Source of the DNA: Bacillus sp. es.034
GTDB lineage: Bacteria > Bacillota > Bacilli > Bacillales > Bacillaceae_B
Direction of reading: 5' to 3'
DNA length: 64,000 bases
Assembly: GCF_002563655.1 (NCBI RefSeq)
Contig: NZ_PDIY01000001.1
Coordinates: 1-64,000, forward strand
This document shows positions 40,835 through 61,108 of this stretch, one piece after another. Position 1 is the stretch's first letter. Every line of letters begins with the position of its first letter. The notes under the pieces are model-generated. The model saw nothing but the letters and a program-made list of their open reading frames with translations, made no database searches and was not told the DNA's origin. A program made the translations under genes and the position numbers.

Positions 40835-40861
40835 TAACATTTTACGTATTTACGAAATTTC

Positions 40862-42475: not shown

Positions 42476-43819
42476 TCATATCCAATTCAAAACATACACA
42501 TACACAAACGCCAATCCCGTTATCGAAAGAAAATACACCCCATTCCACTTAAAAGCAACGGTGACCCCATTCCTCTGAACACACTGACTGATGATAATAT
42601 TCATAGCATTCAACGGAGAGATCGCAGATGACAGCATCCACGTAAAAATACACATAAATGCTACACTGGCAACCGCTACATTAGGCATGGCTGTAAAGTC
42701 GAGAGAGGTTAATATCAACGGTGTGACGATAATCTGATGCACTCCGAGAAACGCCATAAAGGTCACCAATAGGATGATGAAGAGAAACAAAACGCCAATG
42801 GATTGTGTGGCCGACCACTGTATGGACCTCTCCAATAGTTCCTTGACGGGTGTATGGGAAACAGCATTCCCGAACAGCCCTGCACTTAAGAAGAGGCAGA
42901 TCTCCATTTTCTGTGATTGGAGCTTGTTCTTATAGAGAATGATTTCTTCTTTAACGATTGATTTCCTTTTCCGAAAGATTACCCAGGCTACAGGAACCAG
43001 GAAACAAATGATGCTGACCAGGAGCAGCATGGACTTCTCGAAGACCTGCTCCATGATAATCAACAGCACAACCAATCCGAGGACAAAACCAAAGAGGAGG
43101 TAAATATCCTTCTTTGGCCCTTTTTCATGTGAAATTATCTCGTTTCTTTCCTCGGCCGCAGCAGTCTCTTCTACTATCCTAGGTCGAAAAAGAACGATAC
43201 CCATCATCATTTGAATAACCGCAAACATGACTCCGACGGCGACATATGAAAGATAAGTAATATCTAAATAGAATAGGACAATCCCCACTGAAGCAAAAAA
43301 TGGCGACCATATGACCGCCGGGGTAAATCCTACATAATAGGATCTTGATAGTAACTTGGACGGTAGATGTATACTTTCCACAAACCCGTGAACAATCCTT
43401 AAGGCACCCATATTCAAGATTGGTGCCAGGGTCAGCATAAACGTGCTTATGCCATAAAATGTTTTTCGTGGGTTGTGCTTCAACTCATTCAAATAAAGGA
43501 TAACAGAATCAATGATCCCTTCTCTTCTCAGTGGCACGGATAGAAGTGGAGCTAAAATGAGAATCGATAACAGGGGCATATTCTGCGTGATTCCCTGGAC
43601 CAGATCAAAGCCTGTATCTCCAACTGTATAGTGAATGATTCCCCCTGCAGTAAACAGGCCCAGTGTAAATATCCGGCCTTTCCATTCTAATAAAGGAAGG
43701 AATAGCAAAAATACGGCCGTGGCCACTATGTTAAAAACCAAACCAATATAAACGTTCGGCATAAAAGCTTCAACAATATAAAGAAAACACATACTCATGA
43801 TGAGAGAAAAACGTAACAT
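42476..43819 (-). CDS. Membrane permease of ion-transporter type (DUF401-like)
   Basis: This 447-residue protein has about ten to twelve hydrophobic helices and a central charged loop near residues 205-225. It looks like a carboxylate or ion transporter of the IT/ArsB-like group (NMPLLSILILAPLLSVPLRR, GFTPAVIWSPFFASVGI). Start at 43819 after GAGAAGGG. It is the last gene of the sigma-54 operon, 63 bases behind the dehydrogenase. Uptake or export of an organic acid used or made by the operon is inferred. Confidence 0.65.
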   Translation of the reverse strand: MLRFSLIMSMCFLYIVEAFMPNVYIGLVFNIVATAVFLLFLPLLEWKGRIFTLGLFTAGGIIHYTVGDTGFDLVQGITQNMPLLSILILAPLLSVPLRREGIIDSVILYLNELKHNPRKTFYGISTFMLTLAPILNMGALRIVHGFVESIHLPSKLLSRSYYVGFTPAVIWSPFFASVGIVLFYLDITYLSYVAVGVMFAVIQMMMGIVLFRPRIVEETAAAEERNEIISHEKGPKKDIYLLFGFVLGLVVLLIIMEQVFEKSMLLLVSIICFLVPVAWVIFRKRKSIVKEEIILYKNKLQSQKMEICLFLSAGLFGNAVSHTPVKELLERSIQWSATQSIGVLFLFIILLVTFMAFLGVHQIIVTPLILTSLDFTAMPNVAVASVAFMCIFTWMLSSAISPLNAMNIIISQCVQRNGVTVAFKWNGVYFLSITGLAFVYVYVLNWI

Positions 43820-43882
43820 GTTGTCCCTTCTCTCTTTAAGTCTCTAACAATCTACTGATACTATTCTGTTAGGAATGACTCC

Positions 43883-44980
43883 TCATCCCCTTTGTACTTT
43901 GTCAGGAAGAGGTGCATGATGCTTTAATAGATCCCTGAATTCATTCCCGAGTTGTTCTGTCGTTGCCTCTCCGCCTAAATCAGGGGTGAGAGCATCCTTC
44001 CGGGAAAGAATCTCCTGAATGGTCGACAGTATCGCATTCCCCCATGCTTCTTCACCAAAATGATCCAACATCTGACTGACAGACCATATGGCAGCAAGGG
44101 GATTGGCCAGTCCCTTGCCGGCAATATCAGGAGCAGAGCCGTGGATGGGTTCGAACATGGAAGGATACGTTCGTTCAGGGTTGATATTGGCACCTGCCGC
44201 CAAACCAAGACCACCTGTAATCGCAGCACCCAAGTCCGTCAGGATATCCCCGAATAAATTGGATGTCACCACAATTTCGAATCTTTCCGGCTGAAGGACG
44301 AAATAGAGGCTAGCCGCGTCCACTAGGTAAGAATACGTTTGGACATCAGGATATTCTTTGCCTACTTCGTTAAATACTTCATCCCAGAATACCATGGAAT
44401 AATTAAGGGCATTCGCTTTGCTGATGCTCGTCAGCGTCTTCTTCTGTTTTCGTGCCTCTTCATAAGCATAGCGGATAATCCGTTCCGTCCCTTTCCGGGA
44501 AAAAACACCGGTCTGTAGTACCACTTCCTCCGCCTTTCCTTTAAAGAGCCAGTCACCCGCTCCGGCATATTCCCCTTCACTGTTCTCACGGATCACCAGG
44601 AAGTCTATTTCTTTTTCACTTTTATTCTTAAGAGGGGTTAAATCAGGATGCAGGAGTTTAATCGGCCTGAGGTTTACATACTGATCAAACTTCTTGCGTA
44701 TTTCCAATAGTAATTCCCATAGGGAGATGTGATCGGGGACCCCGGGATATCCTACCGCTCCCAAGTAGATGGCATCGAATTCCTTCAATTGATCGATCCC
44801 GTCGTCAGCCATCATCTTTCCCGTATCCACATAATACTCACATCCCCAAGGGAACTCCGTAAAGCTGAAAGAAAGTTGTGGATCGACTTCCTCAATCATT
44901 TTCAGGACCTTAACACCTTCTGCTACGACTTCAGGTCCTATCCCATCCCCTGGGATAAGGGCAATTTTCTTCTGTTTCAT
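43883..44980 (-). CDS. Tartrate/D-malate/isopropylmalate-type decarboxylating dehydrogenase
   Basis: This 365-residue protein is of the isocitrate/isopropylmalate dehydrogenase family: ALIPGDGIGPEVVAEG, VNLRPIKLLHP, ENSEGEYAGAGDW, VTSNLFGDILTDL and EPIHGSAPDIAGKGLANP. The length and ENSEGEYAG region resemble tartrate or D-malate dehydrogenase more than LeuB. It would oxidise and decarboxylate a 2-hydroxy-diacid. Start at 44980 after GGAGGTCAAGG. Its role in a beta-oxidation-like operon is unclear. Confidence 0.8.
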   Translation of the reverse strand: MKQKKIALIPGDGIGPEVVAEGVKVLKMIEEVDPQLSFSFTEFPWGCEYYVDTGKMMADDGIDQLKEFDAIYLGAVGYPGVPDHISLWELLLEIRKKFDQYVNLRPIKLLHPDLTPLKNKSEKEIDFLVIRENSEGEYAGAGDWLFKGKAEEVVLQTGVFSRKGTERIIRYAYEEARKQKKTLTSISKANALNYSMVFWDEVFNEVGKEYPDVQTYSYLVDAASLYFVLQPERFEIVVTSNLFGDILTDLGAAITGGLGLAAGANINPERTYPSMFEPIHGSAPDIAGKGLANPLAAIWSVSQMLDHFGEEAWGNAILSTIQEILSRKDALTPDLGGEATTEQLGNEFRDLLKHHAPLPDKVQRG

Positions 44981-44992
44981 TTCCTTGACCTC

Positions 44993-45754
44993 CTATGCTT
45001 TTGGTCCCCCGGCAACATATAAAACCTGACCGCTTATAAAGGAAGAATCCGGGCTTGCAAAAAAGCTCGCTGCCTGCGCGATGTCTTCCGGCGTACCAGC
45101 CCTGTTGACCGGGATTTGTTTGACTTTGGCTTCTATCAGTTCTTCAAAAGGGATTCCCAGCCGTTCTGCCACTGCTTTCGTCATGTCTGTCATGATAAAG
45201 CCGGGAGCAATCGCGTTCACCGTGATATGATATTTCCCAAGTTCAATGGCTAACGTCTTGGTAAAACCCTGTATGCCAGCCTTCGCTGCAGCGTAATTCG
45301 CTTGACCTCTGCTTCCGAGTGCTGAAACGGAAGATAGATTAATGATTCGTCCATACTGATTTTTCACCATTGATTTCTGGGCATATTTACTGCAAAGGAA
45401 CGTGCCTTTCAAATGAACATTCATTACATCATCCCAGTCGGTCGAGCTCATCTTATATAATAGATTGTCACGAATGATTCCGGCATTATTAATTAATATA
45501 TCTACCTTCCCATGATCCGCTTCCACCTCGGTGAATAGCTTTTCCACTTCCGCTTCGTTGGTGACATCGGCGGTTATGGCCATAACCGAAAGATTTTCTT
45601 CCATGAACTGATGATAGGTCTCCAATAAAGCCTGTTCCTGAATGTCCACTAAATAAACAGTGGCCCCATCCAAGGCAAGCTTTTGGGAAATCTCCCTGCC
45701 GATGCCCCTGCTGGCACCAGTCACTATGGCTATCTGATTCTCTAAGTGCGCCAT
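44993..45754 (-). CDS. Short-chain dehydrogenase, FabG/acetoacetyl-CoA-reductase type
   Basis: This 253-residue SDR has IVTGASRGIGREIS (cofactor site), LINNAGI and catalytic Tyr/Lys in QANYAAAKAG. FabG-like members reduce 3-oxoacyl-ACP or 3-oxoacyl-CoA. The start at 45754 (MAHLENQ) follows GAGGGGGGTGAGG. Inside a CoA-pathway operon it could oxidise a 3-hydroxyacyl intermediate; the specific substrate is unknown. Confidence 0.85.
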   Translation of the reverse strand: MAHLENQIAIVTGASRGIGREISQKLALDGATVYLVDIQEQALLETYHQFMEENLSVMAITADVTNEAEVEKLFTEVEADHGKVDILINNAGIIRDNLLYKMSSTDWDDVMNVHLKGTFLCSKYAQKSMVKNQYGRIINLSSVSALGSRGQANYAAAKAGIQGFTKTLAIELGKYHITVNAIAPGFIMTDMTKAVAERLGIPFEELIEAKVKQIPVNRAGTPEDIAQAASFFASPDSSFISGQVLYVAGGPKA

Positions 45755-45758
45755 GACC

Positions 45759-46724
45759 TCACCCCCCTCTATGATTCTGATATAATCGTTCAAGCTGCTG
45801 CTCGTATTCTCCCACGATATTCTGGATGATTTCTTTGGCACTTCTAATTTCGTTGATTAATCCGATTGTCTGGCCCAATGAAATCACGCCTGAATGGTCA
45901 TTTCCCGTAGTGAGTAATTCCTGATAAGCTTCACCGCTGATATAAGGAAAGATCTCTTCAAGGGTGGCTCCTCCTCTTTCCTTTTCAACAAGCTCCACCG
46001 CCCGCTCCGTTTTCATCACTCTCATGGCTTTTCCAATCGATTTTTTTACAATGATCGTATCTGTTTCCTGTAAATCTACTAATCTCTTTTTAATCGATTC
46101 ATGGAGGATGACTTCCTTTGAAGCTAGAAACCTTGTACCCATCTGGACGCCTTCTGCCCCTAAAGCAAAAGCAGCAAGAGCGGATTTCCCGGTTGAGAAC
46201 CCTCCTGCTGCAATGACTGGTATGGAAAGTTCCTCCACAGCCTTCTGTATCAACGTAAGACTGGTGACGTCTTCTCTTCCCGGGTGGCCTCCACACTCAT
46301 ATCCAACCACCACCACTGCATCACAGCCGATCGCTTCCGCCTTTTTGGCAAATCTGACGGATGGGACGACATGGACCACCTTTATTCCGTTTCCTTTCAG
46401 ACTGTCCATATATTTCTCAGGGTTGTTCCCTGAAGTAAAGACAACCGGTACACGGGCTTCTATGGCACCCTCAATAAATTCATCCATCGGTTTACGAATC
46501 CCGATGGCAATATTGACTCCAAATGGCTTAGAGGTGAGTCTTCTGGCAACTGCGATATCCTCCAGCATCTCTTCCTTGGACGAATAGCTCCCTGCTGTGA
46601 TGAGCCCGAGCCCCCCTGCTTCTGATACTGCGGAAACGAGAGGAGAGGTCCCAAGTCCCTGGAGACCGCCTTGGATAATAGGATAGCGAATGTTAAACAT
46701 CTTAGTTATGGCCGTATCCTTCAT
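45759..46724 (-). CDS. Nitronate monooxygenase / FabK-like flavoprotein
   Basis: This 321-residue FMN TIM-barrel protein shows IRYPIIQGGLQGLGT, VVVGYECGGHPGRED (the catalytic His), VIAAGGFSTGKSAL and GAEGVQMGTRF for the phosphate site. It belongs to the 2-nitropropane dioxygenase family, which includes nitronate monooxygenases and enoyl reductases. In an acyl-CoA operon an enoyl reductase or other flavin step is as plausible as nitronate oxidation. Its start overlaps the thioesterase stop by four bases. Confidence 0.82.
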   Translation of the reverse strand: MKDTAITKMFNIRYPIIQGGLQGLGTSPLVSAVSEAGGLGLITAGSYSSKEEMLEDIAVARRLTSKPFGVNIAIGIRKPMDEFIEGAIEARVPVVFTSGNNPEKYMDSLKGNGIKVVHVVPSVRFAKKAEAIGCDAVVVVGYECGGHPGREDVTSLTLIQKAVEELSIPVIAAGGFSTGKSALAAFALGAEGVQMGTRFLASKEVILHESIKKRLVDLQETDTIIVKKSIGKAMRVMKTERAVELVEKERGGATLEEIFPYISGEAYQELLTTGNDHSGVISLGQTIGLINEIRSAKEIIQNIVGEYEQQLERLYQNHRGG

Positions 46725-47134
46725 ATTCGTTCACCCTTAGAGAGCTTAAATGTTCCAGTACAGTGGCCAAGGAGTTCACCATCTTCATTTTTCAGCCTTC
46801 CTTCAATGAAGACCGTATTCCGGTTTTGATGAATAATCGATGCTTCTGAATAAACCGTCCCGTCTATGACTGACTTTAGATATTGAATATCTAAATGGAG
46901 TGTTGCTACTTCATCAAACCCCAGTGACCTCCCAGCCATGCCCATCGCTGTATCAAGTACCGACGCATAGATGCCTCCATGAACTGAATTCCTCACATTA
47001 ATAAACTCTTCCTGAATGGGAAGAGCCAGTAAAACGTGACCTTCTTCCAATTCTTTTAGCTCTAATCCGATAAAATTCCAGAACGGGCTATTTTCAAAAT
47101 CTGATCTTACTTTCTGCAAATGCTCTGATGTCAT
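46721..47134 (-). CDS. PaaI-type hotdog thioesterase
   Basis: This 137-residue hotdog-fold protein carries the motif NSVHGGIYASVLDTAMGMAG seen in PaaI/YdiI thioesterases (HGG and the catalytic Asp region). It probably frees CoA from stalled acyl-CoA intermediates. It overlaps the flavoprotein and hydroxyacid dehydrogenase genes by four bases on each side, so expression is tightly coupled. Confidence 0.85.
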   Translation of the reverse strand: MTSEHLQKVRSDFENSPFWNFIGLELKELEEGHVLLALPIQEEFINVRNSVHGGIYASVLDTAMGMAGRSLGFDEVATLHLDIQYLKSVIDGTVYSEASIIHQNRNTVFIEGRLKNEDGELLGHCTGTFKLSKGERI

Positions 47135-48141
47135 GAGAATGCACCCTTTCCGGCTTCTGAAAGTTCATCTTGATTGGCAATGACTGAAAGCTTTTCCCCA
47201 TTGATCACACGGATCAGATTCTCTGCAATCAGGATCGAGGTCTGACGGGCTGCCTCAAGGCTGATACCCCCGATATGCGGACTCATCGTCACTTGTTTCA
47301 ATTGAAAGAACGGATGGTCCTCAGGTGGCGGTTCATTGGAAAATACGTCAATTCCCGCTCCAAGAATCTGATTCCGTTTCAGAACATCTACTAAATCCGC
47401 CTCATTCACCACACCGCCCCGGGCTGTATTAATAAGGACGGCCGTTTCTTTCATAAGCGTCAGCAATCGATGATCAACAAGTTTATCTGTTTCTTTCGTC
47501 AGAGGGATATGTAAACTTACTGCATCACTTTCAGAGAATATTTTCTCCAGGGATGTGGTTAATTCCACCCCAATTTGATCAGCAGCCTGCTGTTTCACTT
47601 CGTCTATTTTCCTTACATACGCCATCGCTTTCATTCCGAAACCATGTACTAATATCTTAGCAACTTTTTGAGCTATGCTGCCGAATCCAACAATGCCTAA
47701 ATGTTTCCCTTCCAGTTCATGGGTATATTCTCCATCCCTCGACTGAAAGTTTCCTACTCTCGTTTCCCTGTCAAAGAAAGCTGTTTTTTTCATGACGGCC
47801 AAAAGCAGGCTCACCGCATGTTCAGCGGTTGCCGTACTATTCAGCTTTGGTGCATGTAAGACGGGAATCCTCTTGGTCGTTGCATATCGTACATCGATAT
47901 TATCAAGTCCCACACCTGCCCCGGAAATGGCCTTTACTTGCTGGCAACGATCCAAAATGGCAGATGTGATCCTGGCAGGGGCCCGGAGGATGATTCCATC
48001 CACATGATGATGGTGAAGGTAATCACATATTTCGGCTTCATTAAACTCCGTGAACTTCTTTACTTCGGCGTATTTGTTCAATCGCTCCTCTCCATCCGGA
48101 TGGTACATGGGCAGGATCTGAACGATATGTGGCTTATTCAT
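47131..48141 (-). CDS. D-2-hydroxyacid dehydrogenase, SerA/phosphoglycerate-dehydrogenase type
   Basis: This 336-residue NAD enzyme has the Rossmann motif LGIVGFGSIAQKVAKIL, the catalytic Arg in INTARGGVVNEADL, Glu in GIDVFSNEPPP and His in MSPHIGGIS. It interconverts a 2-oxo acid and D-2-hydroxy acid. The start at 48141 (MNKPHIV) follows AAAAGGGAG. Its presence with the tartrate-type dehydrogenase suggests that the substrate carries or gains a 2-hydroxy group. Confidence 0.87.
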   Translation of the reverse strand: MNKPHIVQILPMYHPDGEERLNKYAEVKKFTEFNEAEICDYLHHHHVDGIILRAPARITSAILDRCQQVKAISGAGVGLDNIDVRYATTKRIPVLHAPKLNSTATAEHAVSLLLAVMKKTAFFDRETRVGNFQSRDGEYTHELEGKHLGIVGFGSIAQKVAKILVHGFGMKAMAYVRKIDEVKQQAADQIGVELTTSLEKIFSESDAVSLHIPLTKETDKLVDHRLLTLMKETAVLINTARGGVVNEADLVDVLKRNQILGAGIDVFSNEPPPEDHPFFQLKQVTMSPHIGGISLEAARQTSILIAENLIRVINGEKLSVIANQDELSEAGKGAFS

Positions 48142-48170
48142 TTCAACACTCCCTTTTGACACGTCACCTC

Positions 48171-49361
48171 TTAGACTTGAAGATTCTCAATGATAGTCGA
48201 GATTCCCTGACCACCGCCAATACAAAGCGTGACTAACCCATATTTTTCACCCCTGCGTTCCATTTCGTGAAGAAGCTTCGTCATCAGGATCGCTCCAGTC
48301 GCTCCGATTGGATGACCCAACGCAATGGCCCCTCCATTGACATTCACTTTGTTGATATCCATCCCTGATTCACGGATCACTGACAGCGCCTGGGCAGCAA
48401 ATGCTTCGTTCAGCTCGATCAGACCCATATCATTGATCGATAGTCCGCATTGCTTTAAAGCCTTAAACGTAGAAGTCACTGGCCCGATTCCCATGATTTC
48501 AGGAGATACTCCGCTCACCGCCTGGGCGATGATTTTGGCTTTCGGCTTTATCCCATACTCTCTCACTTTATCTTCATTCATCATGAGGACCGCGGAAGCA
48601 CCATCATTCCTTCCACTCGCATTACCAGCAGTCACGGTGCCGTTTTCCTTAAAGACCGCCTTCAGCTTTGAGAGCTTTTCTATGGTCGTGCTCCGGGGAT
48701 GTTCATCTGTACTGAATTGAAGAGTGTTTCTTTTTTCCTTATATTCAACTGGAACGATTTCCTTTTCAAATCGTCCGGACTCGATGGCAGACTGTGCGAG
48801 TTCCTGGCTTCTGAGGGCAAACTCATCCTGCTCAGATCTGCTGATGTTGAATTTTTCAGCAAGGTTTTCTGCTGTCAGACCCATCGTCAGGTTGCCGTAC
48901 TTTTCGATTGGCTGGGAGCACGGTTGGCTTTCCGTATTCGGATCAAGTACCTGCGAATTACCGACTTGAAAACCATAACGTGCATTTCGAATATAATAGG
49001 GGGCTGTACTCATGCTTTCAGCTCCCCCGGCTACGACCACATCGGAATAACCAAGCCTGATTTGCATATCCGCATTATTTATCGCTTGAAGTCCCGAGCC
49101 GCACTGTCTATGGACGGTATAGCCTGTCACCTCAACCGGGAGCTCCGCCCGCAATGCAGCGAGACGGGCAAGATTTGAGGTATCTGCACTTTGCTTTGCC
49201 TGACCTAGAATGACTTCATCTACTTCCACTTCAGCTTGACTTCGATTCATTACTTCCCTAATGACTTTCTCGGCAAGATGGTCTACAGGAACACCTTTGA
49301 TCGTTCCACCCATTCTTCCAATCGCCGTCCGGACCGATTCAACGATATATGGCTGATTCAT
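48171..49361 (-). CDS. Thiolase, acetyl-CoA acetyltransferase type
   Basis: This 396-residue thiolase has the nucleophile Cys in HRQCGSGLQAI, GGAESMSTAPY, the His in NGGAIALGHPIGATGA and the second Cys in LCIGGGQG. It would cleave 3-oxoacyl-CoA with CoA to release acetyl-CoA. Start at 49361, three bases after the acyl-CoA dehydrogenase stop. It forms a full beta-oxidation set with its three upstream neighbours. Confidence 0.92.
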   Translation of the reverse strand: MNQPYIVESVRTAIGRMGGTIKGVPVDHLAEKVIREVMNRSQAEVEVDEVILGQAKQSADTSNLARLAALRAELPVEVTGYTVHRQCGSGLQAINNADMQIRLGYSDVVVAGGAESMSTAPYYIRNARYGFQVGNSQVLDPNTESQPCSQPIEKYGNLTMGLTAENLAEKFNISRSEQDEFALRSQELAQSAIESGRFEKEIVPVEYKEKRNTLQFSTDEHPRSTTIEKLSKLKAVFKENGTVTAGNASGRNDGASAVLMMNEDKVREYGIKPKAKIIAQAVSGVSPEIMGIGPVTSTFKALKQCGLSINDMGLIELNEAFAAQALSVIRESGMDINKVNVNGGAIALGHPIGATGAILMTKLLHEMERRGEKYGLVTLCIGGGQGISTIIENLQV

Positions 49362-49364
49362 TTC

Positions 49365-50525
49365 TTACACCCCCACGTATGAGGATTCGCGCTTCAGCTC
49401 ATTCGCAATGATATTGCGCTGAATTTCAGACGTACCTTCATAAATCTTTGTAATTCTCGCATCACGATAATAACGCTCAATTGGATAATCGCTCATATAT
49501 CCGATTCCACCATGGATTTGTACCGCTAAATCCGCCACCTTGTTATATACTTCCGATGCGAATAATTTTGCAATGGCCGCTTCTTTCACTACCCTCATCT
49601 TTTGATCGGTCATCCAGGCAACACGGTACGTCATCGATCGAAGAACCTCGATCTGCATACTTATTTCTGCAAGCATATGCTGAACGGCTTGTACTTCGAT
49701 GATCGGTTTGCCGAACTGTTCCCGTTCCTGTGTATATTGCAAGCAATGTTCAAGAAGCTTCTCACATGAACCAAGGTTTCTTGCCGCAAGACCGGCGCGA
49801 CCATTCGCCAGGATTTTCAACGCATTGATATAACCCTGCCCCTCTGTTCCTAGGACGTTTTCTGCAGGAACCTCCATATTTTCAAAGAAAAGCTCAGCTG
49901 AATGAGACCCTTTCAACCCCATTTTCTGTTCAACCTTTCCTAATACGAAGCCTGGGAAATCCTTTTCTACGATAAAGGAAGTGATCCCCTTCGCTCCTTT
50001 GGCACGATCTGTTACTGCCATTACGGTAAATACATGCCCATCGACTGCGTTGGTAATATAATGCTTGGAACCGTTCAGGATGTATTTATCGCCTTTTCTG
50101 ACCGCAGTCGTTTTCAACGCTGCTGCATTGGAGCCTGCACTTGGTTCGGTTAAGGCAAATGCACCAATCCATTCTCCAGTGGCCATTTTAGGCAAGTATT
50201 TCTGCTTTTGTGCTTCTGTCCCTAACTCGACGATTCCTACAGACCCAATCCCCGTATGAGCCCCGATCAGGGTTGTATAGCCATTATGTGTTTTACCAAG
50301 CTCCTCATATATGGCGCATTTCCCCACCATATCGAGTCCCAGGCCACCGTATTCTTCCGGGATACTCAAACCGAAGAGTCCCATTTCCTTCGACATGTCA
50401 ACCAGTTTCTCCGGTATCATATCCTTCTCTTCAATTTCCATCGCCAAAGGTTCCGCTGCTTCTTTCACAAACTTCCGTACATTATCCCTTAAAAATTTTA
50501 TGTCTTCTGAAAAATTAAAGTCCAT
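49365..50525 (-). CDS. Acyl-CoA dehydrogenase
   Basis: This 386-residue FAD enzyme shows [13 protein letters not shown] and, near the C-terminus, [14 protein letters not shown]; the catalytic base Glu lies near IYEGT as in short/medium-chain members. The start at 50525 (MDFNFSE) follows AAGGGAGAGG. It makes the 2,3-double bond in acyl-CoA and needs ETF as acceptor; no etf genes are in the window. It sits between the hydratase and thiolase. Confidence 0.92.
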
Positions 50526-50538
50526 CTGTACCTCTCCC

Positions 50539-51318: not shown

Positions 51319-51331
51319 GCTCTCATCTCCC

Positions 51332-52177: not shown

Positions 52178-52189
52178 CTAAAAGCCCCC

Positions 52190-54160
52190 TTAGCTGGATA
52201 TAGTATGTTCAACAGTCGTGCTTTTCGGATTGAATTTTTGATAGAAGAATACGAGTGCCAGAATGGCGAATCCAATTAGATCCGTTACAATCCCCGGATT
52301 GATCATGAGTATTGCCCCAATGAATAGGATGATTCTTTCATACCAAAGCGCATTCCTCAAAAGCCATCCTTCTGCCGCACAAGCAACCCCTATGATTCCA
52401 ATAATGGATGTGATCACTGATAGAATAATATGAGGAGCATCCCCTACCAGGAGCAATGTCTCTCCATAAACAAACATATACGGAACGATGAAGGCGGCAA
52501 GGCCCAGTCTGACAGCTGTCATCCCTGTTTTCATCGGATCTGACCCCGAAAGTCCTGCTGCAGCAAATGCAGCCAGTGCCACTGGTGGTGTAATCGCAGA
52601 TAAAGCGGCAAAGTAGAACACAAACATATGGGCCGCAAGCGGTGATACACCTAGTTCAATTAACGCTGGAATGGTCAGTGGTACTTGAACGATGTAAGCC
52701 GCAACCGTCGGAAGTCCCATCCCGAGGATAATGCTCGTAATCATCGTGAAAATAAGAGTGACTATTAAAATCCCACCTGAGATATCAATGATCATTCCAC
52801 TGAATTTCAGACCAATTCCAGTCAAACCGATAATCCCGATAATGAAACCTGACGCAGCACATGCAATGGCTGTTTCAATGGCAGCCCTTGCCCCTAAATC
52901 GAGAGCTTTATACATTTTTGAGAATGATAATCTAGTAGACTTCTTAAAAGCTGCCACCACAATCGTCACACCGATTGAAAATAAGCCAGCTCGCATAGGA
53001 GATGTTCCTGATGCCAGCATCACAACGATTACGACTAACGGTACAAAGAACATAAAGCCCGTCTTTAATACGGTTGAAACTTTTGGCAAATCTTCTTTCT
53101 TTAAGCCATTCAGTCCAAGTCGCTTCGCTCGTAGGTCGACTTGAAAGTATAAACAGCAGTAATAAAGAACCGCTGGTATAATGGCAGCAACTGCTATATC
53201 CATATAAGGAACCCCTAAATAGGAGGCAATGATAAAAGCGGAGGCTCCCATGATCGGAGGCATGATTTGCCCTCCTGTCGAGGAAACCGCTTCCACAGCA
53301 GCTGCAAAATGACTTCTATATCCCGTCTTCTTCATTAATGGAATCGTGAAGGCACCCGTTGTCACCGTGTTGGCTACAGCACTTCCAGAAATGGTTCCCA
53401 AGATAGAACTAGCCACAATGGCTGTTTTGGCAGGACCTCCGCGATACTTCCCCATACCTGCAACAGATAAATCAATGAAGAATTGTCCTGCTCCGGAAAC
53501 CTCCAGAAACTTCCCAAATAAGATAAACAGGAAGATAAACGTGGCTGATACTCCAAGAGGGACACTGAAAATGCCAGTCACTGTATAGAATAGATGATCC
53601 ACGATCCACATGGTGGTAAATTCACGATGGGAGAGTTCACCGGTGATGAGATGTCCAAATATCCCATACACCAAACAAATAAAGATAATCAGAACAAGCG
53701 TATTCCCTATCACACGCCGGGTCGCTTCGATTAACAATAATCCGGATACAATGCCGATTGTAATCTCAAGCATAGTCAGCGGTTCAATATAACTCATACG
53801 TGATGAGATCACCTGAGCGTTCATCACATAATAGGAATAACAAGCAATCGACAAAATCATAAACAGCCAGTCATACCAGGGAATGCTCTCATTTTTCACT
53901 GCTTTCTTGGTTGGTTTATAGATTGCAAATGTAAGGATCAAAGCAAACGCAAGATGGGCAGACCGCTGGAGAATCGACTCAAATACGCCAAAGAATGCCG
54001 TGTATAAGTGGAACAAAGACATAAGGACAGCGACAATGGAAATGATCTTGGCAGCTGCACCCTTTAAAGAGCGCAGCTTACTGTTAAGATTTCCATCTTC
54101 ATCATATTGAGTTACAATTTCCGATGCTTCTACTTCTGTTGACGAATCCTTTTTAGTCAT
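52190..54160 (-). CDS. TAXI-type TRAP transporter fused permease
   Basis: This 656-residue membrane protein joins the small and large TRAP permease parts, about 17 helices in total. The DctM-like half shows SGSAVANTVTTGAFTIPLMKK and VSSTGGQIMPPIMGA. Fused permeases of this kind work with TAXI binding proteins, and one lies 40 bases upstream. The cargo is a carboxylate feeding the CoA enzymes of the same operon. Confidence 0.9.
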   Translation of the reverse strand: MTKKDSSTEVEASEIVTQYDEDGNLNSKLRSLKGAAAKIISIVAVLMSLFHLYTAFFGVFESILQRSAHLAFALILTFAIYKPTKKAVKNESIPWYDWLFMILSIACYSYYVMNAQVISSRMSYIEPLTMLEITIGIVSGLLLIEATRRVIGNTLVLIIFICLVYGIFGHLITGELSHREFTTMWIVDHLFYTVTGIFSVPLGVSATFIFLFILFGKFLEVSGAGQFFIDLSVAGMGKYRGGPAKTAIVASSILGTISGSAVANTVTTGAFTIPLMKKTGYRSHFAAAVEAVSSTGGQIMPPIMGASAFIIASYLGVPYMDIAVAAIIPAVLYYCCLYFQVDLRAKRLGLNGLKKEDLPKVSTVLKTGFMFFVPLVVIVVMLASGTSPMRAGLFSIGVTIVVAAFKKSTRLSFSKMYKALDLGARAAIETAIACAASGFIIGIIGLTGIGLKFSGMIIDISGGILIVTLIFTMITSIILGMGLPTVAAYIVQVPLTIPALIELGVSPLAAHMFVFYFAALSAITPPVALAAFAAAGLSGSDPMKTGMTAVRLGLAAFIVPYMFVYGETLLLVGDAPHIILSVITSIIGIIGVACAAEGWLLRNALWYERIILFIGAILMINPGIVTDLIGFAILALVFFYQKFNPKSTTVEHTISS

Positions 54161-54200
54161 ACTTTCACCTTCTTTTTCATGGATATGGTGTGTATATCAC

Positions 54201-55190
54201 TTACTCGAGAGCCCCGACTTCCTTATAATACTTCTCTGCTCCAGGATGAAGCTTACCTACATTGTTTTTCACTGAATACTCTGCATCAAAGTCTTTCATA
54301 ATCGGTGATAACGTTGTCCACGTATCTTTTTCTTCTACCATCATTTTCGTCAGCTTGTATACCGTCTCTTCATCCATTAGGTCATCATTGACTAATAGAA
54401 CGGTATAACCGGCAACTGTGTTGACATCTTCTTTCACATTGGAATACGTGCCGCCTTCAACCGTATATTCCAAATATCCTTCATTCTTTTCATGCAGACC
54501 TTTAATCGTTTCATCATCCAAAGGAATCAAGCGGATTCCAAGTGTGGTATCAAGCTCCTGGAAGGTGGAGACAGGCGCCGCTACCATTCCTACAATGGCA
54601 TCGATATGACCGTCACGAAGAAGATCTGCTCCGTCAGCCGTACCAATATACTCAATTCCGCCAAGGTCATCGTAGGACATATCATTCAGCTTTAAAATAT
54701 CCTGAAAGGCAAGTTCTCCACTGTATCCTTTAATCCCAGGGCTTACTTTCTTCCCTTTTAAGTCCTTTACAGATTTGATATCAGAATCGGCACGAACGAC
54801 GATATGGAACACATTCGGATAAAGGGTTGCAACGGTGCTGACATTGTCCACTTTTTCTTTAAAAGCATTTTCTCCTTTTAAAGCTTCCGGGACCGTCTGA
54901 CCATTACTGAATCCAAGAGCAAATGTACCTTGACTTAGCCCCAATAGGTTGGAAACAGATCCACCTTCGACCACTGTTACAGATGAATCCGGGAAGACTT
55001 CACTCATTTTTTCCCCCATTGAACCTGATAATGTGTACCAGAAGCCACCCACTGTAGCCGACCCGAAAGCCATATCTTTAGGCGGGCCATCAGCGCTATC
55101 CTTTTTAGTACTGCCAGCTTCATCTGAAGAACATGCTGCTAATGTCATTAATAATAAGGTTACCAATACGATTAAATATTTTTTCATCAT
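54201..55190 (-). CDS. TAXI-family TRAP solute-binding lipoprotein
   Basis: This 329-residue protein has a signal peptide with lipobox MTLAAC. The mature part opens with MAFGSATVGGFWYTLSG, the TAXI family pattern, and has VKDLKGKKVSPG. ATGs at 55190 and 55187 are both possible after AAGGGGG. It binds the carboxylate imported by the fused permease next to it. Characterised TAXI systems take up glutamate or dicarboxylates, so the substrate here is open. Confidence 0.9.
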   Translation of the reverse strand: MMKKYLIVLVTLLLMTLAACSSDEAGSTKKDSADGPPKDMAFGSATVGGFWYTLSGSMGEKMSEVFPDSSVTVVEGGSVSNLLGLSQGTFALGFSNGQTVPEALKGENAFKEKVDNVSTVATLYPNVFHIVVRADSDIKSVKDLKGKKVSPGIKGYSGELAFQDILKLNDMSYDDLGGIEYIGTADGADLLRDGHIDAIVGMVAAPVSTFQELDTTLGIRLIPLDDETIKGLHEKNEGYLEYTVEGGTYSNVKEDVNTVAGYTVLLVNDDLMDEETVYKLTKMMVEEKDTWTTLSPIMKDFDAEYSVKNNVGKLHPGAEKYYKEVGALE

Positions 55191-55200
55191 TACGTCCCCC

Positions 55201-55857
55201 TTATTTTGCTTTGATTTTTGTTTTTTCTATTAAATGAAATGGTGCATCTGTTATTTCTCTTAATCCATCTACAGAAATGTCCGAGAGAATTTCAACCAAG
55301 AACATCTTTTCTTCCATAAACTTGAATACCGCTTGCTCTGTTACGATCATGTCCGCTTTTCTCACTCCGCTACTTGGATAAGAAAGCTTTTTTACAAGTT
55401 TTGGACTCCCATTTTTGGACAAATGCATCGAAGCGATGATCATGCGTTTCGCTCCTGCAACAAGGTCCATGGCTCCACCAACCCCCAGGATGGTTTCACC
55501 CGGTACTGCCCAGTTGGCAACTTCTCCGGTTTGATCAACCTGTAAAGCACCAAGAACTGCTGTATCAATATGCCCTCCCCGTATCATCAAGAAGGAGTCA
55601 GAGCTGTCAAATAAGGAAGAACCGATATCCATGGAAACAGGTTTTTTACTCGCACTGATCAAATCCATATCCACTTCCTCACCAGTTGGAGTAGGTCCCA
55701 TACCAAGCAACCCATTTTCTGATTGAAGGTAAACCTTTTTATCTCCAAGATAATCCGGAATGAGAGTAGGGATGCCGACTCCTAAATTAACGATTTCATC
55801 TTCGTTTAATTCTTGAGCAACCCTTTTGGCAATTGTGACTCTTTTAGAATGACTCAA
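55201..55857 (-). CDS. scoB: 3-oxoacid CoA-transferase subunit B
   Basis: This 218-residue subunit carries the catalytic Glu in YLQSENGLLGMGPTP and GGAMDLVAGAKRMI. With subunit A it moves CoA from succinyl- or acetyl-CoA to a free acid. It overlaps subunit A by 14 bases. It likely activates the imported acid at the entry of the pathway. Confidence 0.92.
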   Translation of the reverse strand: MSHSKRVTIAKRVAQELNEDEIVNLGVGIPTLIPDYLGDKKVYLQSENGLLGMGPTPTGEEVDMDLISASKKPVSMDIGSSLFDSSDSFLMIRGGHIDTAVLGALQVDQTGEVANWAVPGETILGVGGAMDLVAGAKRMIIASMHLSKNGSPKLVKKLSYPSSGVRKADMIVTEQAVFKFMEEKMFLVEILSDISVDGLREITDAPFHLIEKTKIKAK

Positions 55858-56530
55858 CGTATCTTCCCCCTTCCTTCACATAGCGGTTTTGAACGATAAA
55901 GTCCACGTATAAGTGAGGTGTCACGACTTCTTCGGGAGCAAATGACCCTGCTTCCACGATTTCATCCACCTCTGCTATGACGATCTTAGCTGCTGTTGCC
56001 ATCACTGGATTGAAATTCCTTGCTGTCTTGTCATAAATTAAGTTCCCCAGCGTATCAGCCTTCAGTGCCTTGATAATGGCTACATCTCCTTTGATTGCTT
56101 TTTCAAATATGTAGGATTCACCATCAATCACTTTTTCTTCCTTTCCTTCAGCTAGCTTCGTTCCCACACCAGTCTTTGTATAGAAACCACCGATTCCGGC
56201 CCCACCGCAGCGAATCGCTTCTGCTAATGTCCCCTGGGGAATGAGTTCAATTTCCAATTCACCCTTCGACCAGGCTTTGACTGCGTCACGGTTCGTCGTA
56301 AAGTATGATCCTTTTGCCTTTTTGAGCTTTCCGGCAATCAGGAGCTTCCCAAGGCCACGCCCTTCCTCTCCCAGGTTATTACTGATGATCGTTAGATTGT
56401 CTTTATCCGAATTCACCAGTTCATCAATCAGTGTGAGGGGTGTCCCGGAAAGGCCAAACCCCCCCACCAACAATGTGTCTCCACTATGAATGTGCAGCAG
56501 TGCGTCATCCAGACTTAATCGTTTCTTCAT
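55844..56530 (-). CDS. scoA: 3-oxoacid CoA-transferase subunit A
   Basis: This 228-residue subunit opens with the family CoA-site VGGFGLSGTPLTLIDELV and has GAGIGGFYTKTGVGT. The start at 56530 (MKKRLSL) lies inside the end of the upstream acyl-CoA synthetase gene, an overlap of 26 bases, with GGGGAGGAACAAA as ribosome site. It forms the heterodimer with subunit B. Confidence 0.92.
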   Translation of the reverse strand: MKKRLSLDDALLHIHSGDTLLVGGFGLSGTPLTLIDELVNSDKDNLTIISNNLGEEGRGLGKLLIAGKLKKAKGSYFTTNRDAVKAWSKGELEIELIPQGTLAEAIRCGGAGIGGFYTKTGVGTKLAEGKEEKVIDGESYIFEKAIKGDVAIIKALKADTLGNLIYDKTARNFNPVMATAAKIVIAEVDEIVEAGSFAPEEVVTPHLYVDFIVQNRYVKEGGRYVESF

Positions 56531-57923
56531 TTTGTTCCTCCCCTTGTTTTTGAGATGCCGAGTAATGTACATAGGCAGAAAATGATTTGATGGCTGTACT
56601 TTCCTGGAAGAAATATGGCTTCTTTGTCTTCTTCAAAATGTCGATCGCCAGCTCATCGTTATAACCCTGTGACATAAATATAGGTAAAAATATACAATTA
56701 CTCTCTTTCATCAACTGTTGGATTTGTCCTGATAAAATTTCATTTTGATAGTCTACTTGGAACGGAAATGGAACGATGATATTGTCATAGTCTCCTGATT
56801 CATGGAGTACTTCCAAGCATGAAGTCAACTTGGATAAATCGTCATAAACAATCGTGGTGACATCTAAAGGATTCATAAAGGCCTTCTCGATTCCCGTTAT
56901 GCGAATCATTTCTTTCTGCAAGCACTCAGATAGTGGCGGAAGATCAATTCCATATTTATCGCATAAGTCCGCCAAGTAAATGGAAGTAGCACCGGCCCAG
57001 GAAAAAATGACGGTTCGCCCTCCCTTTGCTTTCTTGTACGAGTCGAAAAGCCAGGAGATCGCCACCACTTCATCAATACTCTCTGCCTTTATTAACCCTG
57101 GATGATTGACCATCTCCCATGGAATGGCATAATCATTATTCCTACCCAGATGATGCTTCACCGCAATTCTCGATATCTTCGAGTGACCAATTGGAAGTAA
57201 GATAACAGGCTTACGCTGAAGATAAGCTTGATGAAGCAGACGAAAAAACCGCTCTTCTTCTGTAATCGACTCAATCACCAATAGAATCGTTTCTGTGTCA
57301 GGATCATGAATCAAAAACTCAAAGCAATCATTCATGTTGATATCCATCTCATTCCCCGGAGATAGCCAGTAGGAGAATCCAAGGCCTTTCTCGTTAGCAT
57401 CTAGTATGGCCCTACCAATGCTCCCTCCATGACTGATCAAACCAACGGAGCCTTTATGAAAATTTTTTGGTTCAAATCGAGGTGAAAACGAGATTCCCCA
57501 GTTGCCAATAAAATGATAGAAACCAGGTGAATTCGGTCCATAAACCCTTGTATTTGTGCCCCTTACAATCGCTTTAAGTTCTTCTTCCCTGGTGATTCCA
57601 TCAGGGCCGCTTTCAGAAAATCCTGAGCTTAGGATGATCACATTTTTCACTTGTTTTTCTACGCATTCTTTTAGTATTTTTGGGGTATGTATAAAAGGGA
57701 TGATTATACATGCCAAATCAATCTCTTCTTTGATCTCCAGTACACTTGGATAACAAGCCATGCCTGAAATCGAATCATAATTGGGATTAACAAGAAAGAT
57801 ATCCCCAGCAAATTTTGATTTTTGAAGATTGACCATCACACGTCCGGCATTCTGATGAAATCTCTCAGATGCACCTATGATTGCAATGCTTTTAGGGGAA
57901 ACGATGGGTTGTAATGTTCTCAT
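56505..57923 (-). CDS. NDP-forming acyl-CoA synthetase alpha-type protein, no ATP-grasp part
   Basis: This 472-residue protein has a CoA-binding Rossmann domain (SIAIIGASERFHQNAGRVMV) and two succinyl-CoA-ligase-like domains, with the probable phospho-His in LISHGGSIGRA. Full-length ADP-forming acetate-CoA ligases add an ATP-grasp beta domain of about 230 residues, which is absent. No separate beta gene lies in the operon. It might use a beta subunit encoded elsewhere or work with the CoA transferase. It overlaps the regulator gene by four bases. Confidence 0.78.
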   Translation of the reverse strand: MRTLQPIVSPKSIAIIGASERFHQNAGRVMVNLQKSKFAGDIFLVNPNYDSISGMACYPSVLEIKEEIDLACIIIPFIHTPKILKECVEKQVKNVIILSSGFSESGPDGITREEELKAIVRGTNTRVYGPNSPGFYHFIGNWGISFSPRFEPKNFHKGSVGLISHGGSIGRAILDANEKGLGFSYWLSPGNEMDINMNDCFEFLIHDPDTETILLVIESITEEERFFRLLHQAYLQRKPVILLPIGHSKISRIAVKHHLGRNNDYAIPWEMVNHPGLIKAESIDEVVAISWLFDSYKKAKGGRTVIFSWAGATSIYLADLCDKYGIDLPPLSECLQKEMIRITGIEKAFMNPLDVTTIVYDDLSKLTSCLEVLHESGDYDNIIVPFPFQVDYQNEILSGQIQQLMKESNCIFLPIFMSQGYNDELAIDILKKTKKPYFFQESTAIKSFSAYVHYSASQKQGEEQNEETIKSG

Positions 57924-59971
57924 GATTTTAATGATCCCCCTTCTAATTTTTTGACCTTCCTTACTATGGTAGAAGGATTCACCTTAAGAGCCCGGGCGAT
58001 GCCACGGTAAGACTTTTCTGTGAGCGACGCCTTATAAATAAGCTCTCTTTCCAGCTCTTCTATCGCTTCCTTCAGTGGTAATATTTCATTCACCACAATG
58101 GCCTTTTCAGTACCCGTTTTTCGTTCATCCGTTTTATTAAACAACGAAAGTACATCGCTCTCATTAACTTCTTGGTTGGTAGCTGTTACATATAATCTTT
58201 CAAGTATATTGACGAGCTCTCTCACATTCCCCGGCCATCTGTAGTTGCTGAGAACTTGTATGGCTTTCGTCGAAAATCTGAGGTGTTTATCATATTTAGA
58301 AGCAAACATTCTTGAATACGAATCGACCAGAAGTGGTATATCTTCCAATCTCTTTCTCAAAGGAGGGATGGCGATCGGTATAACATTCAACCTATAGAAT
58401 AAGTCTTCACGGAAGTTCCCTTCTTGGACCAGTTCTTGCAGGTCTTTATTGGTGGCAGCAATCACACGGACATCTATCTTTTTGGGAGCTGCTGAGCCTA
58501 CCCGGGTTATCTCCATTTCCTGAAGGACCCTTAACAGTTTCACTTGAAGATGGGTAGGGATCTCTCCAATTTCATCGAGAAAAATCGTTCCATTGTTTGC
58601 TTGTTCAAATAAACCGGCTTTTCCCTTTTTTAAAGCACCCGTAAATGCTCCTCCCTCATACCCAAACAACTCTGATTCCATAAGGGTTTCCGGTATCGCT
58701 CCGCAGTTCACTTTAATGAAAGGCTGCTCCATCCTTGGACTCGCCTCTTGAATTAATTTGGCTATCTCTTCTTTCCCCACTCCCGATTCTCCAGTTAGTA
58801 AAACGGTGACATCTACTTTAGCCACCTGTTCTACGGTTTCGATCAACCTCTTCATCTCTGAAGATTCCGCTATGAAGGAACCTGTTTTCTCAGATAAGTG
58901 TAATGTCTCCAATAGTGACTTTGCTTTCTCAAGCTCATTCCTCAACGCATCAAACTCAGACATATCTTTCACATAAATGACAATTCTCTCGATCATTTGA
59001 TTGCTACTATTTTTAATGGGGTTCGCGGTAATGATTAAAGAATTATCGCTGCCGACGCTTGTTTCCATGACATTATGTCGTTTGCCCTTCGCAATCACTT
59101 TGTTGACGATCTCTTTAATAAAGTCTGGTGTCTCATGTGTGTCGGAATCGAGATTAAAAAGAGAACAAAAGCTTTGATTACTTTTAATAATCATTCCTTC
59201 TCCATCTGTAATACAGATTCCATCGGTTGAGTTTTCCAGTACACTTTCCTGCTCCCTTAAGAGCTGTTTAACGGATTCAAGTTCATTCGAAACAAATTCT
59301 ATTTCTGAAATATCCTGAAAGACGCCTACTGCCCCAGTAAGGGTTTCACCATCATAGAGTGGTGTTCTATGCGTTAAATACATTCTTCTTCCCACACGAT
59401 ATTTTTCTGTGTGTCCTTTACCAGTTCGGATGACATTCAGCAATCCACTTGGTGTTACGACATCCGTCAAGAATTTACCGAGTGCTTTCTCTTTTGACGT
59501 CATGGCCATTTTTTCTGCAGGAGGGTTGATCGATGTGATTTTCCCTTCAAGATCAATCGAGAGAATACCATTGTGGGCCGACTTGAAAATCGCATCCCAA
59601 CGGCTGACTTCCAGTTGAGAGAACTTTGCATAGGTAGCCAAATACTGATCTTTCGTCAAAAATCCAGAAATCTGTCCGTTCTTATTGATTACCGGCCAAA
59701 TATCGTGATCAATTTCTGTTATATGTTTTAATTCATCCGTTTCTTTTAGAAAATGAATGTTCGTTTTATGAATGTCAGATAGTGTTCTTTTCTTTTTTAG
59801 TAATCCACTTAAAAGATCATTCTCTGTGAAACACCCCACCAGCTCATCCTTAATGTTATAAACCAACCCGCCCTTCACTCGAGATTCAAGTAAACGATTT
59901 GCAACAGCTTCAATGTAATCGTTTTCAAAATACTTTATAGAAGTACTAGTCATTGCATCTTTCACTAACAA
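57920..59971 (-). CDS. Sigma-54-dependent activator with CBS pair, PAS domains, AAA+ and HTH
   Basis: This protein has a CBS pair (about residues 1-120), two PAS domains (about 125-225 and 245-345), the AAA+ domain and a C-terminal helix-turn-helix (SYRGIARALKVNPSTIVRKV). AAA+ motifs are intact: TGESGVGKEEI (Walker A), ELFGYEGGAFTGALK (sigma-54 contact) and GTIFLDEIGE (Walker B). A GTG at 59998 would lie four to five bases from the predicted start point with no ribosome site. TTG 59971 has GAGGGAG eight bases upstream and is the better start (683 residues). The gene heads the operon and appears to be transcribed from its own sigma-54 promoter. The ligand sensed by CBS or PAS parts is unknown. 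Confidence 0.9.
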   Translation of the reverse strand: MLVKDAMTSTSIKYFENDYIEAVANRLLESRVKGGLVYNIKDELVGCFTENDLLSGLLKKKRTLSDIHKTNIHFLKETDELKHITEIDHDIWPVINKNGQISGFLTKDQYLATYAKFSQLEVSRWDAIFKSAHNGILSIDLEGKITSINPPAEKMAMTSKEKALGKFLTDVVTPSGLLNVIRTGKGHTEKYRVGRRMYLTHRTPLYDGETLTGAVGVFQDISEIEFVSNELESVKQLLREQESVLENSTDGICITDGEGMIIKSNQSFCSLFNLDSDTHETPDFIKEIVNKVIAKGKRHNVMETSVGSDNSLIITANPIKNSSNQMIERIVIYVKDMSEFDALRNELEKAKSLLETLHLSEKTGSFIAESSEMKRLIETVEQVAKVDVTVLLTGESGVGKEEIAKLIQEASPRMEQPFIKVNCGAIPETLMESELFGYEGGAFTGALKKGKAGLFEQANNGTIFLDEIGEIPTHLQVKLLRVLQEMEITRVGSAAPKKIDVRVIAATNKDLQELVQEGNFREDLFYRLNVIPIAIPPLRKRLEDIPLLVDSYSRMFASKYDKHLRFSTKAIQVLSNYRWPGNVRELVNILERLYVTATNQEVNESDVLSLFNKTDERKTGTEKAIVVNEILPLKEAIEELERELIYKASLTEKSYRGIARALKVNPSTIVRKVKKLEGGSLKS

Positions 59972-60012
59972 TGTGCTCGCTCCCTCTGAGTGATTCACTC
60001 ATTTATTTATAA

Positions 60013-60029
60013 TGCAAGAAGTGTGCCAA
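60013..60029 (-). promoter_or_regulatory. Sigma-54 (-24/-12) promoter of the 16-gene operon
   Basis: The minus strand reads TTGGCAC, five bases, then TTGCA. GG and GC elements have exact spacing and the match to YTGGCAC-N5-TTGCW is essentially complete. Transcription should begin near 60002. Confidence 0.88.
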
Positions 60030-61092: not shown

Positions 61093-61108
61093 ATTTTCCA
61101 CTTCTCTC

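Follow-up and report, generated by a model that had tools for sequence, protein, structure and literature searches.

What do sixteen closely packed genes behind a single sigma-54 promoter allow a Bacillus to consume? The question arises from the first 64 000 nucleotides of contig NZ_PDIY01000001.1 of Bacillus sp. es.034 (RefSeq assembly GCF_002563655.1), hereafter the window, in which an earlier reading of the DNA (the original prediction) had proposed one sigma-54 operon for the import and coenzyme A (CoA)-dependent oxidation of a carboxylate. The sequence evidence supports this prediction of a single operon. We regard it as an autoregulated, sigma-54-dependent catabolic unit through which a short (about C4-C6), non-amino carboxylate would be taken up upon induction by the substrate and degraded by CoA-transferase-primed beta-oxidation, a reading to which we assign a probability of about 0.6.

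How the unit is controlled can be read from its promoter, its first gene and the DNA upstream:

60013..60029, minus strand: -24/-12 sigma-54 promoter TTGGCACACTTCTTGCA, 0 mismatches
57920..59971, minus strand: gene 1, sigma-54 activator with CBS, PAS, AAA+ (GAFTGA) and helix-turn-helix domains, assigned by Pfam and NCBIfam and by its GAFTGA loop
60102..60127, minus strand: candidate activator-binding site GCAACACTTGTTGCGATATTGCAACA, two overlapping palindromes, GCAACA-N2-TGTTGC conserved
60206..60221, minus strand: far upstream inverted repeat GTTGCTCAAACGCAAC, candidate activator site, TTGC-N6-GCAA repeat conserved

The promoter, previously called near-perfect, is an exact match to TTGGCACACTTCTTGCA, and no other site in the window has fewer than two mismatches. 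At up to two mismatches the window has 16 such sites against 9.9 expected from shuffled sequences, and by our own estimate an exact match would arise by chance about 0.015 times per window. It recurs in 15 of the 17 upstream segments examined; in 13 of these both boxes are exact, and two have TGGCAT. The two segments lacking it are one cut inside the site (L067) and one that is not from an ortholog (L063). The locus thus joins a -24/-12 promoter to a GAFTGA-bearing AAA+ activator and upstream repeats, in a genome with one sigma-54 gene, as befits sigma-54-dependent control. None of the 15 Pfam hits in the activator is a receiver domain; its N-terminus consists of CBS and PAS. GCAACA-N2-TGTTGC is present in all 16 orthologous upstream segments (one changed base allowed in L074), and so is TTGC-N6-GCAA, a GTTGC-type palindrome about 90-110 bases upstream of the nearer repeat, these segments being mutually related and not independent. 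Across the whole genome the exact form TGTTGC-N6-GCAACA occurs in two places, the operon site included; the other lies between asparagine-synthase-like and phytoene-desaturase-like genes, with no clear link, and one-mismatch matches comprise two copies of one sequence and a site inside a sugar-kinase-like gene. No wider regulon for the candidate site was found in this whole-genome pattern search.

Does this promoter serve one transcription unit? Six-frame open reading frames (ORFs) and start-codon inspection bore out the sixteen leftward genes (42476-59998) and their tight packing with gaps of at most 63 bases and many overlaps: with the likely starts, 5 of the 15 junctions are overlaps of 4-26 bases and 10 are gaps of 3-63 bases. 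Likely starts were corrected for CoA-transferase subunit A (56530), the hydratase (51318), the acyl-CoA dehydrogenase (50525), the 2-hydroxyacid dehydrogenase (48141) and the short-chain dehydrogenase/reductase (SDR; 45754). The activator ORF reaches 59998, and its likely start is the TTG at 59971, behind AGAGGGAG, rather than the GTG at 59998. At the far end stands the following feature:

42448..42474, minus strand: terminator-like hairpin, 12 pairs then TTTTTTT, directly 3' of the gene 16 stop; a copy of a dispersed repeat

The repeat in question, GAAGCACGGGGACGGTTC and its variants, is hairpin-forming and matches the window 10 times at up to three mismatches against 0 expected (42457-42474, 60304-60330, 41994, 25277-25945, 21843 and 6157-6227), and it flanks the operon on both sides, including just upstream. 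Since the end hairpin is one of its copies, it may terminate transcription without having arisen for the operon; its role as the operon terminator is likely, though not specific to this operon.

The original prediction had proposed a search for conserved synteny in other Bacillaceae, and such synteny is indeed present in other genera. The 17 close loci, window included, belong to Rossellomorea, Cytobacillus and relatives, and 13 of them hold all 16 genes (one of these is divided between two contigs, and another has a frameshift in the permease). Presence was scored at 40% identity (38% for the activator; 25% for the permease and thioesterase), and absence means absence within the fetched stretches. 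All 17 loci carry the activator, gene 2, the CoA-transferase pair, the TAXI protein, the TRAP permease, the 3-hydroxyacyl-CoA dehydrogenase, the hydratase, the acyl-CoA dehydrogenase and the gene 16 permease. The thiolase is found in 16 of the 17, split into two frames in one; the 2-hydroxyacid dehydrogenase and the flavin mononucleotide (FMN) enzyme in 15 each; and the thioesterase, SDR and tartrate-type dehydrogenase in 14 each. Gene order is kept across the full-length loci, and the ratio of nonsynonymous to synonymous substitution rates (dN/dS) against locus L013 is low for all 16 genes (0.024-0.093); against L055, dS by NG86 is saturated for 5 of the 16. A scan of named genomes returned 13 loci, from species of Rossellomorea, Cytobacillus, Calidifontibacillus and Bacillus. 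Gene 2 has an ortholog of at least 68% identity in 8 of the order's 397 genomes, host included. For gene 16, six other genomes of the host family (36 genomes, one genus) have a close ortholog (92-96%), and another three have no more than a distant one. The upstream neighbours vary between groups of loci, which suggests that the unit is transferred or retained as a whole.

Some of these loci show features of their own. The permease of C. oceanisediminis 13_TX (L096 1132-2474) and the thiolase of B. dakarensis (L095 1666-2831) each lie in two frames, through decay or sequencing error. Directly upstream of the operon in L069 and L070 (3-7654; C. oceanisediminis 13_TX and, by matching ORFs, Bacillus sp. 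ZZV12-4809) is another cluster, with a split transketolase-like gene, an aldehyde dehydrogenase, a 69% paralog of the tartrate dehydrogenase, 3-hydroxyacyl-CoA-dehydrogenase-like and FAH-like genes and an iron alcohol dehydrogenase.

What kind of compound is imported? Three genes bear on this:

54201..55190, minus strand: gene 5, TAXI solute-binding protein, above the TIGR02122 cut-off
52190..54160, minus strand: gene 6, fused TRAP permease, above the TIGR02123 cut-off
42476..43819, minus strand: gene 16, permease with an ion-transporter-superfamily fold by its structure model; no Pfam or NCBIfam match

Genes 5 and 6 supply the binding protein and fused permease of a TAXI-TRAP transporter, and the VcGluP glutamate system likewise pairs a TAXI binding protein with a TRAP membrane component (PMC11574862). 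In the accessible text on VcGluP, residues Q93 and E125 touch the amino group of the ligand, and mutations of Y45 and Q93 lower affinity most (PMC11574862). Where glutamate-binding TAXI proteins have Tyr, Gln and Glu (Y45, Q93 and E125 in VcGluP), the operon protein instead has W51, N96 and N126, as do 12 of 12 proteins checked; the ligand residues of a glutamate-type TAXI are thus lacking, which argues against an alpha-amino acid ligand. A TAXI profile search of 398 genomes of the phylum (E 1e-70) matched the host alone.

Gene 16 drew no match in Pfam up to E 10, nor in NCBIfam or PHROGs. Its structure model shares a fold with ArsB, divalent-anion symporters and TRAP-M, at about 8-15% identity among the matches listed and with no family model matched, so that we class it by fold as an ion-transporter-superfamily permease with putative carboxylate transport. 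It does not qualify as an AtoE-family transporter, having no Pfam match, and the TRAP genes belong to another family. Relatives of gene 16 occur in 54 of 398 Bacilli genomes (E 1e-25, host included). Twenty stretches were fetched around such hits (19 from other genomes, one from the host), of which three held the catabolic module; some neighbours were named by family search and the others read by eye. Homologs stand beside glucarate genes (L021, L132), glycolate-oxidase-type genes (L136) and, in L019, a CaiB-type transferase, a DctP TRAP and acyl-CoA dehydrogenases; the scanned neighbour in L022 is an efflux-type major facilitator superfamily (MFS) gene, and L135 has mixed oxidoreductase genes. 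The host itself has a second, distant copy (23%; L148 7756-9144, at G000:C1 about 1225764) with DapA- and PdxA-like neighbours, a hint of another organic-acid cluster.

How would the acid be activated and broken down? The genes that follow the activator, together with those after the TRAP permease, give the outline:

56505..57923, minus strand: gene 2, AcdA-like alpha subunit of a nucleoside diphosphate (NDP)-forming acyl-CoA synthetase, phospho-His equivalent His258 kept
55844..56530, minus strand: gene 3, 3-oxoacid CoA-transferase subunit A, above the TIGR02429 cut-off
55201..55857, minus strand: gene 4, 3-oxoacid CoA-transferase subunit B, above the TIGR02428 cut-off
51332..52177, minus strand: gene 7, 3-hydroxyacyl-CoA dehydrogenase, above the NF006722 cut-off
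50539..51318, minus strand: gene 8, enoyl-CoA hydratase; short-chain type by its best model, whose cut-off it does not reach
49365..50525, minus strand: gene 9, short-chain-type acyl-CoA dehydrogenase, by Pfam and NCBIfam
48171..49361, minus strand: gene 10, thiolase, above the TIGR01930 cut-off

With TIGR02429, TIGR02428 and TIGR01930 all above cut-off, the operon has the Ato-type combination of an AtoDA/ScoAB-family CoA-transferase and a thiolase, and the solved relatives of gene 4 include acetate, butyrate-acetoacetate and succinyl-CoA:3-ketoacid transferases. In the acyl-CoA dehydrogenase, Thr84 lies opposite Arg87 of the glutaryl-CoA dehydrogenase 3mpi, which we take to be the residue that binds the distal carboxylate; Thr occupies this position in 10 of 10 sequences checked, so that the arginine of a glutaryl-CoA dehydrogenase (Arg87, 3mpi numbering) is lacking. 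Together, the TAXI residues, Thr84 and the settings of gene 16 homologs favour a non-amino carboxylate, without fixing which. A Niallia plasmid locus with a 75% acyl-CoA dehydrogenase was considered as a relative of the operon and set aside as a beta-oxidation cluster of different composition.

Gene 2 had been read as the alpha part of an acyl-CoA synthetase. It is indeed an alpha subunit, with His258 aligned to the SHTG His of 2csu and invariant in 7 of 7, but the synthetase role is weakened because no beta ATP-grasp partner was detected, the two PF13549 (ATP-grasp_5) hits of the genome reading as SucC and PurD. A dimethylsulfoniopropionate lyase, suggested by the second structural hit, 7cm9, was rejected as the beta half is missing in gene 2. 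It is a puzzle why an operon that already has a CoA-transferase should carry an alpha-only acyl-CoA synthetase subunit. Elsewhere, in L063 (271-10264), a 41% activator relative heads a cluster that also encodes an AcdA-type synthetase of full length, a 56% FMN enzyme, a further AcdA of alpha length, a transferase of CaiB type and an aromatic-acid MFS protein; the alpha-only subunit therefore recurs together with the activator and FMN enzyme.

Between the thiolase and gene 16 lie the accessory enzymes:

47131..48141, minus strand: gene 11, D-2-hydroxyacid dehydrogenase family, by Pfam and NCBIfam
46721..47134, minus strand: gene 12, hotdog thioesterase, TIGR00369 and 4HBT
45759..46724, minus strand: gene 13, NMO/FabK-type FMN enzyme, by Pfam and NCBIfam
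44993..45754, minus strand: gene 14, FabG-like SDR, above the NF009466 cut-off
43883..44980, minus strand: gene 15, tartrate/D-malate-type decarboxylating dehydrogenase, above the TIGR02089 cut-off

Gene 15 also exceeds the cut-off of NF002898 (3-isopropylmalate dehydrogenase). The original prediction took these dehydrogenases as a sign of a hydroxylated or branched acid. A hydroxy acid is possible, since the 2-hydroxyacid dehydrogenase recurs in distant relatives, yet the clue is weakened by the absence of the 2-hydroxyacid and tartrate-type dehydrogenases from 2 and 3 of the 17 close loci, respectively, whereas ten core genes are in all 17. A branched acid lacks specific support, as no operon gene has a branched-acid-specific model as its best hit.

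Twelve further, distant loci came from the gene 16 search and from a 2-hydroxyacid dehydrogenase search (14 of 398 Bacilli genomes, E 1e-105, host included), and 11 of them combine the two transferase subunits and the 2-hydroxyacid dehydrogenase with the four beta-oxidation genes; the twelfth, G966, has of these genes the dehydrogenase alone. Nine of the 12 were fetched via that dehydrogenase, so its presence there reflects selection, and two of the nine (G832, G862) also carry hits to the operon permease. G1104, G1018 and G1025, fetched around permease hits, have the module with the 2-hydroxyacid dehydrogenase, and the other 17 such stretches are without the module. TAXI-TRAP genes occur in 3 of the 12, and in two others a tripartite tricarboxylate transporter takes their place (both have TctA, and G1025 was shown to have TctB and TctC as well); neither transporter was matched in the remaining distant stretches. 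Distant relatives thus retain the catabolic module and exchange the importer. Regulation varies as well: activator relatives (41-57%) are present in G1025, G862, G1087 and G1118, with sigma-54-like sites nearby in G1025, G862 (one mismatch) and G1087 and none in the two gaps scanned in G1118, and there are KdgR/PcaR-type regulators in L129 and L167 and CdaR-type ones in L130 and L166. In G832, electron-transfer flavoprotein (ETF) genes are joined to the module. The module occurs in other orders of Bacilli.

Is such a unit already known? The E. coli ato operon (atoSC-atoDAEB) comprises a sigma-54 activator, the AtoDA CoA-transferase, a transporter and a thiolase for short-chain acids, and these elements are common to both. 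The operon described here differs in that its activator has CBS-PAS rather than a receiver domain, its importers are TAXI-TRAP and an unclassified permease, and it adds its own acyl-CoA dehydrogenase, hydratase and 3-hydroxyacyl-CoA dehydrogenase, five accessory enzymes and the AcdA-like protein. In Clostridiales, crt, hbd, thl and bcd, together with CoA-transferase-like and permease genes, are predicted targets of the enhancer-binding proteins (EBPs) CrbR, XcgR, YctR and AhcR, a content resembling ours, and for some of these regulons binding of sigma-54 to the promoters was seen by gel shift; unlike our operon, the units are smaller, three of four have etfAB, and the accessible text makes no mention of TRAP (PMC6615313). 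A genome-wide study, in the part available, reports that beta-oxidation and CoA-transferase COGs under sigma-54 regulation are enriched in Bacilli and Clostridia; acyl-CoA and 3-hydroxyacyl-CoA dehydrogenases, thiolase, hydratase and CoA-transferase A/B are classes in common, but these are predicted COG-level statistics, and that part describes no such operon (PMC12316311). The main text of a B. thuringiensis sigma-54 paper is without the terms acyl-CoA, CoA transferase, butyrate, fatty acid and TRAP (PMC4428206). The earlier statement that no described pathway has this set therefore holds for the 16-gene set, of which no description was found in the literature searched, and is too strong for the class, since regulation of such genes by sigma-54 has been published for Bacilli and Clostridia (PMC12316311, PMC6615313; accessible parts). 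Nor did we find a homologous operon with an assigned substrate, which had been named in advance as an observation that would tell against the proposal. The general plan is known, whereas the gene combination, the gene 16-type transporter and the exact substrate are not described in the literature searched.

From the gene set, promoter, repeats, end hairpin, conservation, division into core and accessory genes and gene 16 fold, we infer a scheme that covers the direction of the pathway, what is sensed, the substrate and the activity of each enzyme and transporter. The CBS-PAS activator would sense the acid or a metabolite derived from it and, bound to the GCAACA/TGTTGC repeats, open the -24/-12 promoter for all 16 genes, its own included. 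The acid would enter with high affinity through TAXI-TRAP, or through the ion-transporter-fold permease, and the CoA-transferase would give it CoA from acetyl-CoA or another acyl-CoA. Beta-oxidation by the acyl-CoA dehydrogenase, hydratase, 3-hydroxyacyl-CoA dehydrogenase and thiolase would follow and yield acetyl-CoA, which would also be the source of the CoA donor, while the thioesterase, SDR, FMN enzyme and the 2-hydroxyacid and D-malate-type dehydrogenases might widen the range or handle side products. Several observations weigh against this scheme. Gene 2 is present in 17 of 17 close loci and its role is unexplained; hydratase, acyl-CoA dehydrogenase and thiolase reach no NCBIfam equivalog cut-off, so the chain length is deduced from relatives; and two dedicated importers are seldom needed for simple butyrate-like acids. 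In addition, several gene 16 homologs, among them those in L022, L133, L134, L137 and L138, have no recognisable organic-acid context (judged partly by eye), and some distant versions of the module adjoin aminotransferases, an amino-acid permease or an FAD-dependent oxidoreductase, so that the module may serve different acids.

One may argue that the substrate is a 4-hydroxy acid (4-hydroxybutyrate or 4-hydroxyvalerate), a possible if doubtful alternative. Beta-oxidation would yield acetyl-CoA and glycolyl- or lactoyl-CoA, the hotdog thioesterase would release the 2-hydroxy acid for oxidation by the 2-hydroxyacid dehydrogenase, and the D-malate-type enzyme would take a related 2-hydroxy acid. 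This would explain the coupling of thioesterase and 2-hydroxyacid dehydrogenase, whose genes are direct neighbours in this operon as well as in G1025 and G862, and it agrees with the presence of the latter in 15 of 17 close loci and in G1104, G1018 and G1025, with a LUD-domain gene adjoining L129 and a GlcD-like gene adjoining L130, and with the CdaR-type regulators. However, the thioesterase is missing from 3 and the dehydrogenase from 2 of the 17 close loci. As far as the accessible texts go, three routes have been put forward for 4-hydroxybutyrate in P. putida, beta-oxidation to glycolyl-CoA among them, but knockouts there pointed to direct oxidation (PMC7090098), and such acids are poor beta-oxidation substrates in mammals (PMC12440821). 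A bolder outcome, in which the locus would stand for a 4-hydroxy-acid pathway of Bacilli, an uncharacterised TAXI ligand class, an undescribed branch of the ion-transporter superfamily and a cassette that swaps TRAP, tripartite tricarboxylate or other importers, seems rather unlikely.

A C5-C6 dicarboxylate (glutarate or adipate), oxidised as its CoA ester with succinyl-CoA as CoA donor, is an unlikely substrate. In its favour, known TAXI ligands include glutamate and, in one system, 2-oxoglutarate and 2-hydroxyglutarate, according to the available part of one paper (PMC12344293). Gene 16 homologs also lie in glucarate clusters, and the transferase belongs to the 3-oxoacid (pcaI/scoA) subfamily. 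However, all ten acyl-CoA dehydrogenases checked have Thr in place of the presumed carboxylate-binding arginine. The thiolase scores 411.7 bits against a cut-off of 597 for the 3-oxoadipyl-CoA thiolase model, which tells little, as the other listed equivalog cut-offs are missed too.

Could the pathway run the other way, from acetyl-CoA to a butyrate-like product? Such synthesis is what the accessible text proposes for the Clostridiales sigma-54 units, whose EBPs are predicted over comparable genes (PMC6615313; assigned to butyrate or butanol synthesis). We consider this very unlikely here: all 17 close loci keep two importers, one of which has its own binding protein, and this fits uptake. The host group, moreover, is mainly aerobic. 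Lastly, it is extremely unlikely that internal promoters and terminators split the operon into several regulatory units, with the post-thiolase accessory genes belonging elsewhere, for although those genes were lost in varied combinations in 4 of 17 close loci and the coding strand has 11 weak sigma-70-like sites (one scoring 10/12 at 55610-55583) and 13 terminator-like sites inside the operon, the junctions do not exceed 63 bases, order is constant in full-length loci, internal hairpins have at most 11 pairs (mostly 5-7), and promoter-like sites on both strands are fewer than in shuffled sequences (28 versus 36.5; terminator-like sites 22 versus 14.6, standard deviation 3.9).

The interest of the operon, read as a catabolic unit for a short non-amino carboxylate, rests on its unassigned substrate, altered TAXI site, unclassified permease and lone alpha subunit. 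It is self-contained and tractable, with one promoter, one activator and one binding protein, and the identity of its inducer would point to the substrate of the altered-residue TAXI protein, the gene 16 permease type and the catabolic module.

On either side of the operon lie further metabolic genes. Next to its end, a sugar ABC transporter cluster at 35448-41924 (by eye: binding protein, two permeases, dehydrogenase and isomerase-like genes) has a LacI-type regulator adjoining the operon end. On the promoter side, the minus strand at 60502-64000 holds a class II aldolase and OtnK-type (SBD_N/NBD_C) kinase cluster with, by eye, 3-hydroxyisobutyrate-dehydrogenase-like and Asp/Glu-racemase-like genes, which looks like four-carbon sugar-acid catabolism.

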